Below are positions 7,307 through 13,734 of a stretch of DNA of 64,000 bases, piece after piece. The notes under the pieces were generated by a model. That model saw only the letters and a program-made list of their open reading frames with translations, had not been told where the DNA came from and ran no database searches. This stretch comes from Aurantimicrobium sp. MWH-Uga1 (GTDB lineage: Bacteria > Actinomycetota > Actinomycetes > Actinomycetales > Microbacteriaceae). The position numbers and the translations under genes are program-made. Each line of letters opens with the position of its first letter. The first letter of the stretch is position 1. Location: the NCBI RefSeq assembly GCF_003325955.1, contig NZ_CP030929.1, positions 434,001 to 498,000 on the forward strand, given 5' to 3'.

Positions 7307-7445
7307 CGCGATGCCTAGTTTCCTACCTTCAACTCTCACTTGAAGCATCTTTTCTGTATTGGAAGTTTTCGTCCGGCGCAGTGGGAACAAAAAGGCAATA
7401 CCGCCGTAGACTTGGCATGACAACTGAATATCGAGGTCAATCGAT

Positions 7446-7527
7446 CATTGCGGGAGAGTTCACCCTCGAGGTGAACACCGAAGGAGCAATCCTCCCCGAC
7501 AATCTCTCAGGTACGCGTACCGCAGTG
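7446..7527 (+). ncRNA. Glycine riboswitch, aptamer I
   Basis: P1 is formed by CATTGCGG (7446-7453) and CCGCAGTG (7520-7527) with one G-T pair. P2 is TTCACC/GGTGAA. The conserved core GAACACCGAAGGAGCAA and the CTCTCAGGT element (7504-7512) match the glycine aptamer consensus. It lies upstream of gcvT, as expected for a sensor that activates glycine cleavage. Confidence 0.93.
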
Positions 7528-7536
7528 AACGGGCCA

Positions 7537-7622
7537 CTCTGAAAAGAAGATGGTGAAAGAACCATCTCGCCCACGGTGAAAACTGCCTTAGGTAGTGAAG
7601 CTCTCAGGCACAAATGACAGAG
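7537..7622 (+). ncRNA. Glycine riboswitch, aptamer II
   Basis: P1 is CTCTG (7537-7541) with CAGAG (7618-7622). P2 is GATGG/CCATC. The element GCCCACGGTGAAAA replaces the usual CGCCGAAGGAGCAA, and CTCTCAGGCA (7601-7610) is intact. This is the common actinobacterial form of the second aptamer. The 9-base linker (7528-7536) to aptamer I is typical of the tandem arrangement. Confidence 0.9.
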
Positions 7623-7625
7623 GGG

Positions 7626-7663
7626 GAGTTCCATACGAAGGTTTCTAACCGATCGGAGAACTC
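7626..7663 (+). promoter_or_regulatory. Candidate riboswitch expression platform at gcvT
   Basis: GAGTTC (7626-7631) directly after aptamer II P1 can pair with GAACTC (7658-7663). The second arm overlaps the end of the gcvT Shine-Dalgarno GGAG (7655-7658) and stops one base before the ATG. Such a helix would block initiation. How glycine binding alters it is inference. Confidence 0.5.
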
Positions 7664-9250: not shown

Positions 9251-12151
9251 ATGTCGAACGCGTTCGTCAACCGCCATATCGGAACAGATTCTGCTGCTCA
9301 AGCACACATGCTCACTCAGTTGGGATACGACAGCATTGAGCAGCTCATTAAGGCTGCTATCCCTGAGTCCATTCATGTGGATCAGTTCCGTGCTGCAGGT
9401 TCTTCCCTCCTTCCAGAACCCGCAACCGAACGTGAAGCACTTGCTGAACTGCGAGAGTTGGCGTCAAAGAACACTGTTCGTCGCTCACTCATTGGTCAGG
9501 GATACTACGACACCATCACTCCTGCGGTAATCAAGCGCAACGTTCTTGAGAACCCCAGCTGGTACACCGCATACACCCCATACCAGCCAGAAATCTCGCA
9601 GGGTCGTCTAGAAGCCATCATCAACTTCCAGACGATGGTCACTGACCTCACCGGTCTGTCCACCGCGAACGGTTCCATGCTCGATGAGTCGACCTCTGCC
9701 GTAGAAGCCATGCTGCTGGCACGTCGCTCCTCCAAAGTGCAATCCAATGTGTTTGTTGTTGACTCTGATGTCTTGCCTCAGACCAAGAGCCTCATTGCTG
9801 GTCGTGTTGGTGCTGTCGATATCGAGGTCGTGGAACTGGATCTCGCCTCCGGTGCACAGCTGCCTGAAGCTTTTGGTGTGCTCATTCAATACCCCGGAGC
9901 CTCGGGTCGTATTTGGGACCCCAGTGATGTCATCGCCAAGGCGAAAGAAGCTGGTGCTGTCACCATCGTGGCTGCAGACTTGCTTGCTCTCACGCTAATT
10001 ACATCCCCCGCAGAATTGGGTGCTGACGTTGCTGTGGGATCTTCACAGCGCTTTGGTGTTCCCCTGGGCTTTGGTGGACCGCACGCCGGATACCTTGCTG
10101 TTCGGGAAGGTCTTGAGCGCAGCATGCCAGGTCGTCTTGTTGGTGTCTCCGTTGACGCTAACGGTGAACCTGCTTACCGTTTGACTCTGCAAGCTCGTGA
10201 GCAGCACATTCGTCGCGATAAGGCGACATCCAACATTTGTACGGCACAGGTGTTGCTTGCTGTGATGGCTGGAATGTATGCCGTGTACCACGGTCCAGAA
10301 GGCCTCAAAGAAATTGCAACCCAGGTGCACGAGCGCGCAAATGCGCTGGCAGCGATTCTTCGCGCCGGGGGAGTCCAGGTCGCCCATGACAGCTTCTTTG
10401 ACACACTCACCGTGTCTGTTCCTGGCAAGGCTCAGGCTATCTGTGATGCAGCTAAGCAGGGCGGTTTCTTGCTCAATCTTGTTGATGCAGACACTCTTTC
10501 CATCTCGGTGGATGAAACCACCACCCCTGGTGAGGTTGAAACTGTAGCTGGATTCTTTGGGGCTAACGCCGCCTACCAAGTTGTTGCCGCTACTGTTCCC
10601 GCGAAGCTAGTTCGTACCTCGCGCTACCTCGAGCACCCAGTGTTCAACACGCACCGAAGCGAAACCAGCATGATGCGCTACCTCAAGCGACTTGCGGACT
10701 TCGACTATGCTCTCGACCGCGGCATGATTCCTCTGGGCTCGTGCACCATGAAACTCAACGCGGCAACCGAAATGGAAGCAGTCACCTGGCCTGAGTTTGG
10801 CGGATTGCACCCCTTTGCGCCTGCTGATGATGTTGCCGGTTATGTTGAAATGATTGCTCAGCTTGAGAAGTGGCTCATTGACCTCACCGGTTACAACACC
10901 ATCTCTCTCCAGCCCAACGCAGGAAGCCAGGGAGAGCTTGCTGGATTGCTAGCTATTCGTGGATATCACCTGGCTAACGGGGATACCCAGCGCACCATCT
11001 GCCTCATTCCTTCCAGTGCTCACGGAACCAACGCGGCCTCTGCTGTTCTTGCCGGCATGAGCGTAGTTGTTGTTGCTTGTGACGAGGTCGGAAACGTTGA
11101 CCTCGATGATCTTCGCGCCAAGATTGCTGAGCACGGTGACAAGCTCGCCGCCCTCATGATTACCTACCCCTCCACCCACGGTGTCTACGAGCACGCCGTA
11201 CCCGACATCACCGCCGCTGTTCACGCAGCAGGTGGTCAGGTTTATGTTGATGGTGCAAACCTCAACGCAATGACCGGTTTTGCCCGCTTTGGTGACTTTG
11301 GTGGAGACGTCTCACACCTGAACCTTCACAAGACATTCTGTATTCCACATGGTGGTGGTGGCCCCGGTGTCGGACCAGTTGCAGCCAAGGCGCACCTTGC
11401 TCCCTACTTGCCTAGCCACTTTGCAATCCAAAACCCGCACCACGTGTTGGTTGAAGATGGCATGGTCTCCACGGTTACACACGATGGTGTTCAGATCTCG
11501 GCTGCTCCCTATGGTTCACCCAGCATCTTGCCTATCTCGTGGGCTTATGTGCGCATGATGGGTGAAGAGGGTATTCGCCAAGCAACAGCCTCTGCTGTGT
11601 TGGCTGCAAACTACATCTCTCAGCGTTTGGCTCCGTATTTCCCCACTCTCTACACCGGGGATAACGGGCTTGTTGCACACGAGTGCATCTTGGATCTTCG
11701 TCCTCTGACTGCAGAGACCGGCGTAACCGTGGATGATGTCGCTAAGCGTTTGGTGGACTTTGGTTTCCACGCTCCCACCATGAGCTTCCCTGTTGCGGGA
11801 ACCCTCATGATTGAGCCCACCGAATCCGAGGACCTCGATGAGATCGAACGCTTCATCAACGCCATGATCACCATTAAGGCTGAAGCAGATGCTGTTCTTG
11901 CAGGTGAGTGGCCAGCAGATGACAACCCGCTGCACAACGCGCCTCACACTGCCGCCTCCATCGCAGGGGAATGGAACCACCCCTACTCTCGTGAGAAGGC
12001 TGTCTATCCCTTCGCTGAAGGACTGGATGCTGCGACCCGCACGATGCGCGTGCGCAGCAAGTACTGGGCACCTGTTCGTCGCGTCGATAACGCGTATGGT
12101 GACCGTAACCTCGTCTGTTCATGCCCACCGCCTGAAGCATTCGAAAACTAA
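9251..12151 (+). CDS. gcvP: Glycine dehydrogenase (decarboxylating), P protein
   Basis: 966-residue single-chain P protein that decarboxylates glycine and loads the aminomethyl group on GcvH. Seen: N-terminal [36 protein letters not shown] near 80-100, and the PLP lysine in [18 protein letters not shown] (Lys694). The fused two-half architecture is as in E. coli (957 residues). A ribosome-binding site AAGGAAC precedes the ATG. It is the last gene of the operon, closed by a strong terminator at 12154. Confidence 0.96.
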
Positions 12152-12153
12152 GG

Positions 12154-12187
12154 TTGAGCCCCTCGAGAGAGGGGCTCAATTCTTTTT
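12154..12187 (+). terminator. Intrinsic terminator of the gcv operon
   Basis: Perfect 11-bp stem TTGAGCCCCTC / GAGGGGCTCAA (12154-12164, 12169-12179) with loop GAGA, followed directly by TTCTTTTT. Confidence 0.93.
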
Positions 12188-12193
12188 GCGCGC

Positions 12194-12223
12194 TTGTCGA
12201 AATTAACGATATATCGCTATAAG
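12194..12223 (+). promoter_or_regulatory. Promoter of the actinorhodopsin gene
   Basis: -35 TTGTCG (12194-12199), 18-base spacer, -10 TATAAG (12218-12223). The spacer holds the perfect 10-bp palindrome CGATATATCG (12207-12216), a possible operator. It lies immediately after the gcv terminator, so the rhodopsin gene should be an independent unit. Confidence 0.6.
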
Positions 12224-12253
12224 CTGGGAATGTTCTACCAATATGGTGACGCC

Positions 12254-12287
12254 AAGCCCCAAAGTAGGGGTATTGACTTTGGGGCTT
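12254..12287 (+). other. Leader hairpin 1 of the rhodopsin mRNA
   Basis: Perfect 12-bp inverted repeat AAGCCCCAAAGT / ACTTTGGGGCTT (12254-12265 and 12276-12287) with a 10-base loop AGGGGTATTG. It is not followed by a T-run, so it does not look like an intrinsic terminator. It lies between the likely transcription start (about 12230) and the gene. Confidence 0.7.
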
Positions 12288-12294
12288 TCCGCCG

Positions 12295-12317
12295 CCATTA
12301 GTACGTCTCACTAATGG
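12295..12317 (+). promoter_or_regulatory. Leader hairpin 2, overlapping the rhodopsin Shine-Dalgarno
   Basis: Perfect 8-bp stem CCATTAGT / ACTAATGG (12295-12302, 12310-12317) with loop ACGTCTC. The last two G of the stem are the first bases of the ribosome-binding site GGAAGG (12316-12321), so the folded form would partly sequester it. Confidence 0.6.
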
Positions 12318-12331
12318 AAGGTTCCACCCCA

Positions 12332-13123
12332 ATGAATAATCTGTCCGACCTGTTGACTGATAGCCAGTTCAACATTGTCTTCAACATGCTCTCGCTGGGT
12401 ATTGCCAGCATGTTGTTCACTACGTTCTTCCTGGTATTAGCCAGAGATCGTGTGCTCCCGCGTTATCGACTCGCAGTCCTCATCTCTGCAACAGTGACAG
12501 GCATTGCGGCCTACCACTACTTCAGAATGTTTGACTCGTTCAACCACGCATTCTCTACTCTTGACGGAGCAGTGAACAATGCTGCTATCTACAACGTGGG
12601 ATACCGCTACGTAGACTGGCTGCTCACCGTTCCACTGCTGCTGATGGAAATCGTTGCCGTACTCGCATTGACCAGACAGCTCCAAAGCTCTCTGCTCAAG
12701 CGTTTGGTACCAGCAGCGGCCCTGATGATTATTTTGGGTTACCCCGGAGATGCCAAGCTCGACATTTGGGGCATTGCTCCCTCAGTCTGGGGTCTGCTTT
12801 CCACCATCCCCTTCCTCTACATCCTCTACGTGCTCTTCATTGAGCTCAGCAAGAGCCTGGTTCGCCAGTCTCCCGGAGTTCAAAAGAAGATCAAGCAGCT
12901 TCGTCTCTTGCTGATCGCAACCTGGGGCGTTTACCCCATCGCCTTCATCTTTGCGATGAACAGCGATGGCTTCGTAGCTGACCAGTTTGTTGCACGCGAG
13001 GTCGGTTACACCATCGCCGACATTCTGGCGAAGTGTTTGTTCGGTCTGCTCATCTTCTCGATCGCTCGCATGAAGTCCGCTGAGGACGATGCAGAGTTCG
13101 CAAAGACTGAGTTCCGCGACTAA
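12332..13123 (+). CDS. Actinorhodopsin, green-tuned outward proton pump
   Basis: 263 residues with seven hydrophobic helices. The helix-C motif YRYVDWLLTVPLLLME carries Asp95 (proton acceptor), Thr99 and Glu106 (donor), the DTE set of proton pumps. The tuning position is Leu103, which in proteorhodopsins gives green absorption. Schiff-base lysine is Lys234 in ADILAKCLFG. His62 in YHYF may be the acceptor's partner. Gly154 in WGLLSTIPF could line a carotenoid-antenna window; that needs an alignment. I chose ATG 12332 over the in-frame 12314 because GGAAGG lies 10 bases upstream. It is a solitary gene with its own promoter and terminator; no retinal-synthesis gene is nearby. Confidence 0.95.
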   Translation: MNNLSDLLTDSQFNIVFNMLSLGIASMLFTTFFLVLARDRVLPRYRLAVLISATVTGIAAYHYFRMFDSFNHAFSTLDGAVNNAAIYNVGYRYVDWLLTVPLLLMEIVAVLALTRQLQSSLLKRLVPAAALMIILGYPGDAKLDIWGIAPSVWGLLSTIPFLYILYVLFIELSKSLVRQSPGVQKKIKQLRLLLIATWGVYPIAFIFAMNSDGFVADQFVAREVGYTIADILAKCLFGLLIFSIARMKSAEDDAEFAKTEFRD

Positions 13124-13133
13124 ACATCACAGA

Positions 13134-13171
13134 AGAAAAGGCAGGCCCTCTATCGGGGGCCTGCCTTTTCT
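13134..13171 (+). terminator. Terminator of the rhodopsin gene
   Basis: 15-bp stem from AGAAAAGGCAGGCCC (13134-13148) with its complement (13157-13171), loop TCTATCGG. The arm itself ends in TTTTCT and more T/C follows. Strong intrinsic terminator. Confidence 0.9.
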
Positions 13172-13185: not shown

Positions 13186-13734
13186 ATGACGAAGAATGCA
13201 CTCATTGTGGTTGATGTTCAGCAAGGTTTTGACCAACTGGATTACTGGGGACCTCGAAATAACCCCGCCTGCGAAGACAACATTCGTGCGCTTCTGACGA
13301 AGTGGCGCTCGGAAGGTCAGCCCGTTGTGTTGGTGCGACACGATTCCGTGGGTGCTAACTCGCCTCTTCGCCCGGGGCAGCCTGGAAATGATTTCAAGCC
13401 CGGTATCGACGGTGAACATGCGCTGCTGATAAGCAAACAAGTTAACTCTGCCTTTTATGGAACTCCTGACTTAGATGCATGGCTCACAGCATCAGGAATA
13501 TCTGCGGTCACTATCTGCGGTATCACCACGAATCACTGCTGTGAGACCACGGCGCGCATGGCGGGAAACCTGGGTTATGACGTGACGTTTGTTCTCGATG
13601 CCACCCACTGCAATGACAAAAAAGACGTAGATGGCAACGTCATTTCTGCAGATGAGATTGCCCGGGTGACCGGTGCAAATCTTCATGGCGAGTTTGCCAC
13701 CGTTCGTTCAACCGCTGAGGTGTTGAAGGACTAA
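13186..13734 (+). CDS. Isochorismatase-family cysteine hydrolase
   Basis: 182 residues of the cysteine-hydrolase fold shared by nicotinamidase and isochorismatase. The triad is visible: Asp10 in IVVDVQQGF, Lys84 in LISKQVNSAF, and nucleophile Cys118 in TTNHCCETTARMAGNLGYD. The short length and the absence of the nicotinamidase metal-site motif argue against PncA. The substrate is unknown; many relatives act on small amides. No ribosome-binding site is present. The end overlaps the end of the convergent TetR gene by 4 bases. Confidence 0.82.
   Translation: MTKNALIVVDVQQGFDQLDYWGPRNNPACEDNIRALLTKWRSEGQPVVLVRHDSVGANSPLRPGQPGNDFKPGIDGEHALLISKQVNSAFYGTPDLDAWLTASGISAVTICGITTNHCCETTARMAGNLGYDVTFVLDATHCNDKKDVDGNVISADEIARVTGANLHGEFATVRSTAEVLKD

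Follow-up and report, generated by a model that had tools for sequence, protein, structure and literature searches.

A palindrome common to the promoters of a PadR-type gene and of the actinorhodopsin gene in Aurantimicrobium, and a structured rhodopsin leader

PadR-family proteins (PF03551) usually act as repressors, and in the autoregulators of this family the promoter of the regulator gene harbours a palindrome that is also found in the promoter of the target. Operators of other PadR proteins are of the ATGT-N8-ACAT type. At the RNA level, the riboswitches and cis-acting leaders gathered in Rfam 15 are structured segments in front of one type of gene, with a hairpin adjoining the Shine-Dalgarno (SD) sequence, and the ompA mRNA leader carries stabilising 5' hairpins.

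The 5' flank of the actinorhodopsin gene described here lies in a window of 64,000 nucleotides (the whole stretch of DNA that was analysed) from an Aurantimicrobium-like genome, G000, which consists of a single contig of 1.6 Mb. Like the PadR autoregulators, this locus has a palindrome common to a PadR gene's own promoter and to another promoter, although its sequence, CGATATATCG, is unlike the operators mentioned above. Its leader resembles those of Rfam in being structured, in preceding one gene type and in having a hairpin next to the SD, but it falls below threshold for every family, and it recalls ompA in that a membrane-protein mRNA has stem-loops close to its 5' end. Among the matches listed, the titles and abstract beginnings of publications on PadR with rhodopsin, with ATATATCG or with actinobacterial autoregulatory palindromes mention no such operator, and those on actinorhodopsin or proteorhodopsin regulation, riboswitches or untranslated leaders mention no such leader; most subscription papers lie outside the coverage of these searches.

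The rhodopsin locus and its promoter region

The region extends from the terminator of gcvP to the ATG at 12332. The gene that follows (12332..13123, + strand, 263 aa) codes for a xanthorhodopsin-type (actinorhodopsin) protein with a Bac_rhodopsin domain (Pfam PF01036, E 1.4e-38), whose best PDB matches are 9hfk and xanthorhodopsin-type pumps. Its translation carries VDW..T..E, an Asp-Thr-Glu motif that we take to be the signature of actinorhodopsins and xanthorhodopsin-type pumps, and the protein is predicted from its sequence to pump protons. Translation starts at ATG 12332, as an in-frame ATG at 12314 is absent in L005 and out of frame in L006. A coding leader or an N-terminal extension was ruled out by inconsistent frames. 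The upstream boundary of the rhodopsin unit is an intrinsic terminator (12152..12181, + strand) with a 13-pair stem followed by CTTTTT, placed after the end of the gcvP ORF at 12151. Downstream of the gene, the stem scan found a terminator-like 15-bp hairpin (13134..13171, + strand).

Rhodopsin genes are present in five of the eight genomes of the genus. In G004, gcvP, its terminator and the isochorismatase gene are adjacent, and both the rhodopsin gene and the leader are missing. The isochorismatase encoded after rhodopsin in the window (13186-13734) is closest to those of the rhodopsin-less genomes G003 (92% identity) and G005 (90%), with lower identities to those of rhodopsin carriers (G002 86%, G006 77%, G007 75% and G001 74%), unlike rhodopsin itself, for which G001 and G006 reach 97% identity. 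This mismatch hints at recombination at the locus.

The good promoter that the earlier note had placed in this flank was not recovered: a sigma-70 scan found none, the promoter being a non-consensus one, and relatives do not share the -35-like TTGTCG. A -10-like element, TATAAGCT, is present at 12218..12225 (+ strand; TATAAG/TAAGCT), and its TANNNT pattern is kept in relatives as TAAGCT, TATGCT, TACGAT or TACCAT. The transcript probably starts at about 12230-12233.

Other features precede the rhodopsin genes of other lineages. The direct repeat CGTTACCAAAACGTTAC, with an 11-bp period, is found upstream of rhodopsin promoters at many loci of Aquiluna- and Rhodoluna-like genomes (for instance L016, L048 and L042), and it was not seen in Aurantimicrobium; it may resemble an MtrA- or GlnR-type site. 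GTTAC direct repeats before the rhodopsin genes of other lineages amount to 9 sites with at most one mismatch in ten genomes, versus 6 for the reversed pattern.

A palindrome before PadR and rhodopsin genes

The 10-bp palindrome CGATATATCG that had been noticed in the promoter spacer is indeed present at 12207..12216, with an extended form, AACGATATATCGCT, at 12205-12218. The eight genomes of the genus harbour 15 such sites, eight before a PadR gene (one in each genome), five before the rhodopsin gene (in all five carriers) and two elsewhere, and no site for the reversed control pattern. A search of G000 with a 14-base pattern allowing one mismatch yielded a single near-copy elsewhere, AACGATATATCGTT, and the ORF that begins 30 nt after it encodes a PadR domain (PF03551, E 4.4e-19). 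This PadR gene (G000:C1:1552528-1553073; together with its upstream palindrome G000:C1:1552484-1553073, or L235:1501-2090) is followed by an ORF for an ABC1/UbiB-like kinase. The idea of a MerR-type operator in the promoter spacer was dropped after the PadR copy of the palindrome turned up.

We also analysed PadR loci at the family level, considering the best 30 of 65 loci from 120 genomes. In 15 of these 30 loci the exact 10-mer is found no more than 260 nt upstream of PadR, and the other 15 lack it; its 8-base half is found in 19, against one for the control half-pattern. When the two loci of this genus are set aside, 13 of the 28 best-matching loci have the exact palindrome in the regulator's own promoter and 17 have the half, with one for the control. 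An ABC1 gene lies downstream of PadR, on the same strand and 7-147 nt away, in 29 of the best 30 loci. As for rhodopsin genes, the family-level sets have 133 upstream stretches, among which the palindrome is confined to the seven rows of this genus, from five species, and no examined rhodopsin gene outside the genus is preceded by it. G017 and G020, both single-contig genomes from other aquatic genera with palindrome-free rhodopsin upstream regions, gave no match to PadR at 1e-30.

The palindrome, which on these sequence comparisons marks both PadR's own promoter and the rhodopsin promoter, is a better lead than a switch in the leader. We infer that CGATATATCG is a PadR operator, that rhodopsin in this genus has joined the PadR regulon, and that the PadR regulator would control rhodopsin transcription in the genus. 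PadR, encoded elsewhere with the ABC1/UbiB-like kinase, would bind the palindrome just ahead of the -10 element, as well as its own promoter, and once bound it would hinder RNA polymerase and thereby block rhodopsin transcription. Repression is the direction assigned because it is the usual mode of action of PadR proteins.

Fold and conservation of the leader

Both perfect hairpins described in the earlier note are found in the leader. H1 (12254..12287, + strand) has a 12-bp stem with arms at 12254-12265 and 12276-12287 and a 10-nt loop, and H2 (12295..12317, + strand) has an 8-bp stem with arms at 12295-12302 and 12310-12317 and a 7-nt loop. H2 does reach the SD, GGAAGG (12316..12321, + strand), the first GG of which ends its 3' arm. 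A small alternative hairpin, ACCA-ata-TGGT (12237..12247, + strand), lies ahead of them, and 12243-12251 is predicted to pair alternatively with 12290-12298. Perfect stems of at least 12 bp with loops of 3-12 nt account for 10 entries at five places in the 64-kb window, versus a mean of 0.05 in 20 local base shuffles, which preserve base composition in 100-nt blocks only. Because a 12-bp stem with an 8-bp stem within the next 20 nt occurs once in the window and in none of these 20 shuffles, the H1/H2 pair is above chance. The leader as a whole is moderately stable, with a fold z of -2.2 (5 of 200 dinucleotide shuffles fold as well).

The earlier statement that neither hairpin resembles a terminator is correct for the full stems, whereas the scan flags a terminator-like 5-pair sub-stem (12256-12271) inside H1. 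This sub-stem and the strength of H1 are what could speak for transcription attenuation at H1, yet the full stem is followed by TCCGCC, with no T run as in an intrinsic terminator or attenuator. An upstream ORF (ATG 12243, 23 codons) is open in the window and could code for a leader peptide, but no SD precedes it, neither its frame nor its start and stop codons are conserved (the ORF of L002 ends after 10 codons, and L005 has CTG), and the frames of the A-type leaders described below disagree. A leader peptide or attenuation is thus a highly improbable account of this leader.

No Rfam 15 family reached its gathering threshold in the rhodopsin leader region of the window, where the two weak matches are one of 18.1 bits at the upstream terminator (threshold 56) and one of 17.7 bits on the other strand (threshold 75), and no credible match was found among the scanned leaders, including those of 20 relatives. 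The structured leader of the earlier note is supported as real, specific to rhodopsin and unmatched in Rfam. The window has another structured leader about 4.6 kb upstream, a tandem of glycine riboswitch aptamers (RF00504; 67.5 and 40 bits) at 7441-7627 (+ strand), upstream of glycine-cleavage genes; RF00504 does not match the rhodopsin leader.

Within the genus, H2 is kept in all five carriers, with 95% of cells paired over the five species and one two-sided change (U-A to A-U). H1 has 88% of cells paired and one two-sided change (C-G / U-A). It is complete in three of the five species and retains its outer five and innermost two pairs in the remaining two, such that the outer five pairs are found in all. 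The share of paired cells is high, being equalled in only 13 of 500 shuffles; the two two-sided changes, in a sample of five sequences, are matched in number by 123 of 500 shuffles. The leader model R2 was run on 67 sources including the window, and a search with it among 40 genomes gave one gene-strand match in each of the five carriers and none in the three non-carriers of the genus. The four other matches among these genomes were weak (E 0.06-0.5), three of them being that same site read on the other strand. On account of this distribution, and of G004 lacking both, the leader travels with the rhodopsin gene.

Leader identity to the window is 98% for L002, 95% for L003, 73% for L005 and 85% for L006, and the corresponding identities at fourfold sites of the rhodopsin gene are 74, 72, 45 and 62%. 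The leader (73-98%) exceeds only these fourfold sites (45-74%), the flanking intergenic DNA being about as well kept (63-93%). Conservation similar to that of neighbouring DNA, together with the shortness of a 10-bp palindrome, would suit a reading in which the palindrome is a chance or structural feature through which transcription is not controlled, and the leader a passive stabiliser. We consider this unlikely, as 13 of the 15 sites in the eight genomes are at just two promoters and the palindrome recurs before PadR in other genera.

Leaders of other lineages and possible roles

We compared the leaders of 89 rhodopsin genes from close relatives (L001-L109, for which 'aquatic' is used as shorthand), leaving out L004, L007, L083 and identical leaders for the z-scores. 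Their mean z is -1.87, with 41 of the 89 reaching -2 or lower, versus -0.80 (16 of 89) for their own upstream DNA and -0.63 (3 of 24) for the leaders of large-genome relatives. The latter set, with rhodopsin identities of about 55-62%, comprises L110 and 23 scored stretches, 7 of the 30 collected having no usable match. Lineage groups were drawn by eye. The SD-side hairpin arms fit their own partners better than within-lineage swaps (6 of 3000 as good, against 1719 and 345 of 3000 for control windows); only this within-lineage test carries weight, given that a control window also scores under free swaps (34 of 3000). Lineages B3, B4, C and F have no clear SD-proximal hairpin in a 38-nt test.

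In the Rhodoluna-like group A, the leader has a mean identity of 80%, the corresponding figures being 52% for fourfold sites and 71% for the promoter region. Five of 13 unpaired core columns are invariant, and none of 2000 swaps fits the apical stem as well. Alignment A1 has 18 rows, after removal of L043 and L052 (divergent) and L091 (duplicate). The A-type model R1 was applied to 60 genomes, among them those that had supplied the leaders for building it, and found 21 matches in 19 genomes; 20 are directly before rhodopsin and the last is at a contig end. Group C leaders (taken without L081 and L083) are related to those of group A by sequence, with none of 60 shuffles as good. Their first swap tests failed (4772, 2422 and 985 of 5000 as good for P3, P1 and P4, respectively), and further test windows were then used for P3 and P1. 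For P3, 4, 8 and 119 of 5000 swaps were then as good with 10-, 12- and 8-nt arms, in windows picked after the first had given 4772, and P1 was not significant.

A common fold across all lineages was rejected, as R1, checked on 62 sources including the window, had no match to the latter at E values up to 5. Kinship between window-type and A-type leaders is not detectable in sequence either, 21 of 60 shuffles being as good. For these two reasons, 'one ancient rhodopsin riboswitch' lacks support in the case of the window leader.

The earlier note had proposed that the leader could be a translational switch, responsive to temperature, a light-derived signal or an RNA-binding protein. Indirect tests do not support a switch. 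Over the 89 leaders, SD accessibility is 0.44, versus 0.47 with shuffled upstream sequence (p = 0.26; the window has a rank of 0.48), which does not support SD occlusion as a selected trait. Shuffling makes the SD less accessible in 29 acI-like leaders (0.34 for the real leaders versus 0.25, p = 0.002), and marginally so in 22 leaders of large-genome relatives (p = 0.05). The switch that could be drawn for the window would have a ligand or protein stabilise an extended H1 stem (ATGGTG..CGCCAT), which takes CCAT from H2 and frees the SD. Consistent with it, the two predicted folds are separated by about 2 kcal/mol for the window and for two near relatives, all five species keep the shared CCA unchanged, and the leader of type A, from a related genus, shows strong conservation and almost always precedes rhodopsin. 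However, the alternative stem, when imposed, carries a cost of about 8 kcal/mol in L005 and L006, SD accessibility equals that of shuffled leaders, and the A-type conservation transfers by analogy only, given the lack of detectable relatedness. Such a switch is therefore possible but doubtful. An RNA thermometer, in which H2 melts with warmth to expose the SD, is very improbable: the AU-rich 8-bp stem touches the SD, and the predicted openness of the start codon's last base rises from 0.04 at 5 C to 0.45 at 37 C in the window, but over the same range and in five species the pairing predicted for both SD GGs is nearly constant and the AA between them is mostly unpaired at all temperatures, leaving a small predicted effect on the SD.

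Considering the palindrome common to the two promoters together with the conservation, matching stem arms and gene specificity of the leader, we regard as somewhat better than an even chance a two-layer control of rhodopsin, by a PadR operator in the DNA and a folded leader in the RNA. The transcript, starting near 12232, would have a leader of about 100 nt that folds into H1 and H2, as predicted and as supported by the comparisons, with H2 adjoining the SD. This leader may affect mRNA life or translation, its most likely role being mRNA protection or stability and the rate of translation initiation. With a candidate regulator, a 10-bp operator and a defined leader, the control of rhodopsin can be tested directly. 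A published study describes the editing of genomes in Rhodoluna lacicola and Aurantimicrobium photophilum (PMC11577799).

A broader scenario, which we put forward as speculative, is that unrelated, rhodopsin-only structured leaders evolved repeatedly in aquatic Actinobacteria, and that Aurantimicrobium rhodopsin is in addition under a PadR protein that also controls the UbiB-like kinase and senses a hydrophobic ligand (a quinone, a carotenoid or retinal). If so, synthesis of the pump would be tuned, in the DNA as well as the RNA layer, to the redox state of the membrane or to the supply of chromophore.

Other features were found close to the ribosome site in further lineages. Among the 29 acI-like rhodopsin leaders, 16 share the block CCTCGAGG ahead of an SD GGAGG (L199, L202, L204, L205, L207-L213, L215-L217, L221 and L224), and the loci of six such genomes gave no Rfam match up to E 2. 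In L023, L008, L015 and L038, the SD is part of a possible mini-hairpin, CC-GAAA-GG, with a GNRA-type loop at the ribosome site.
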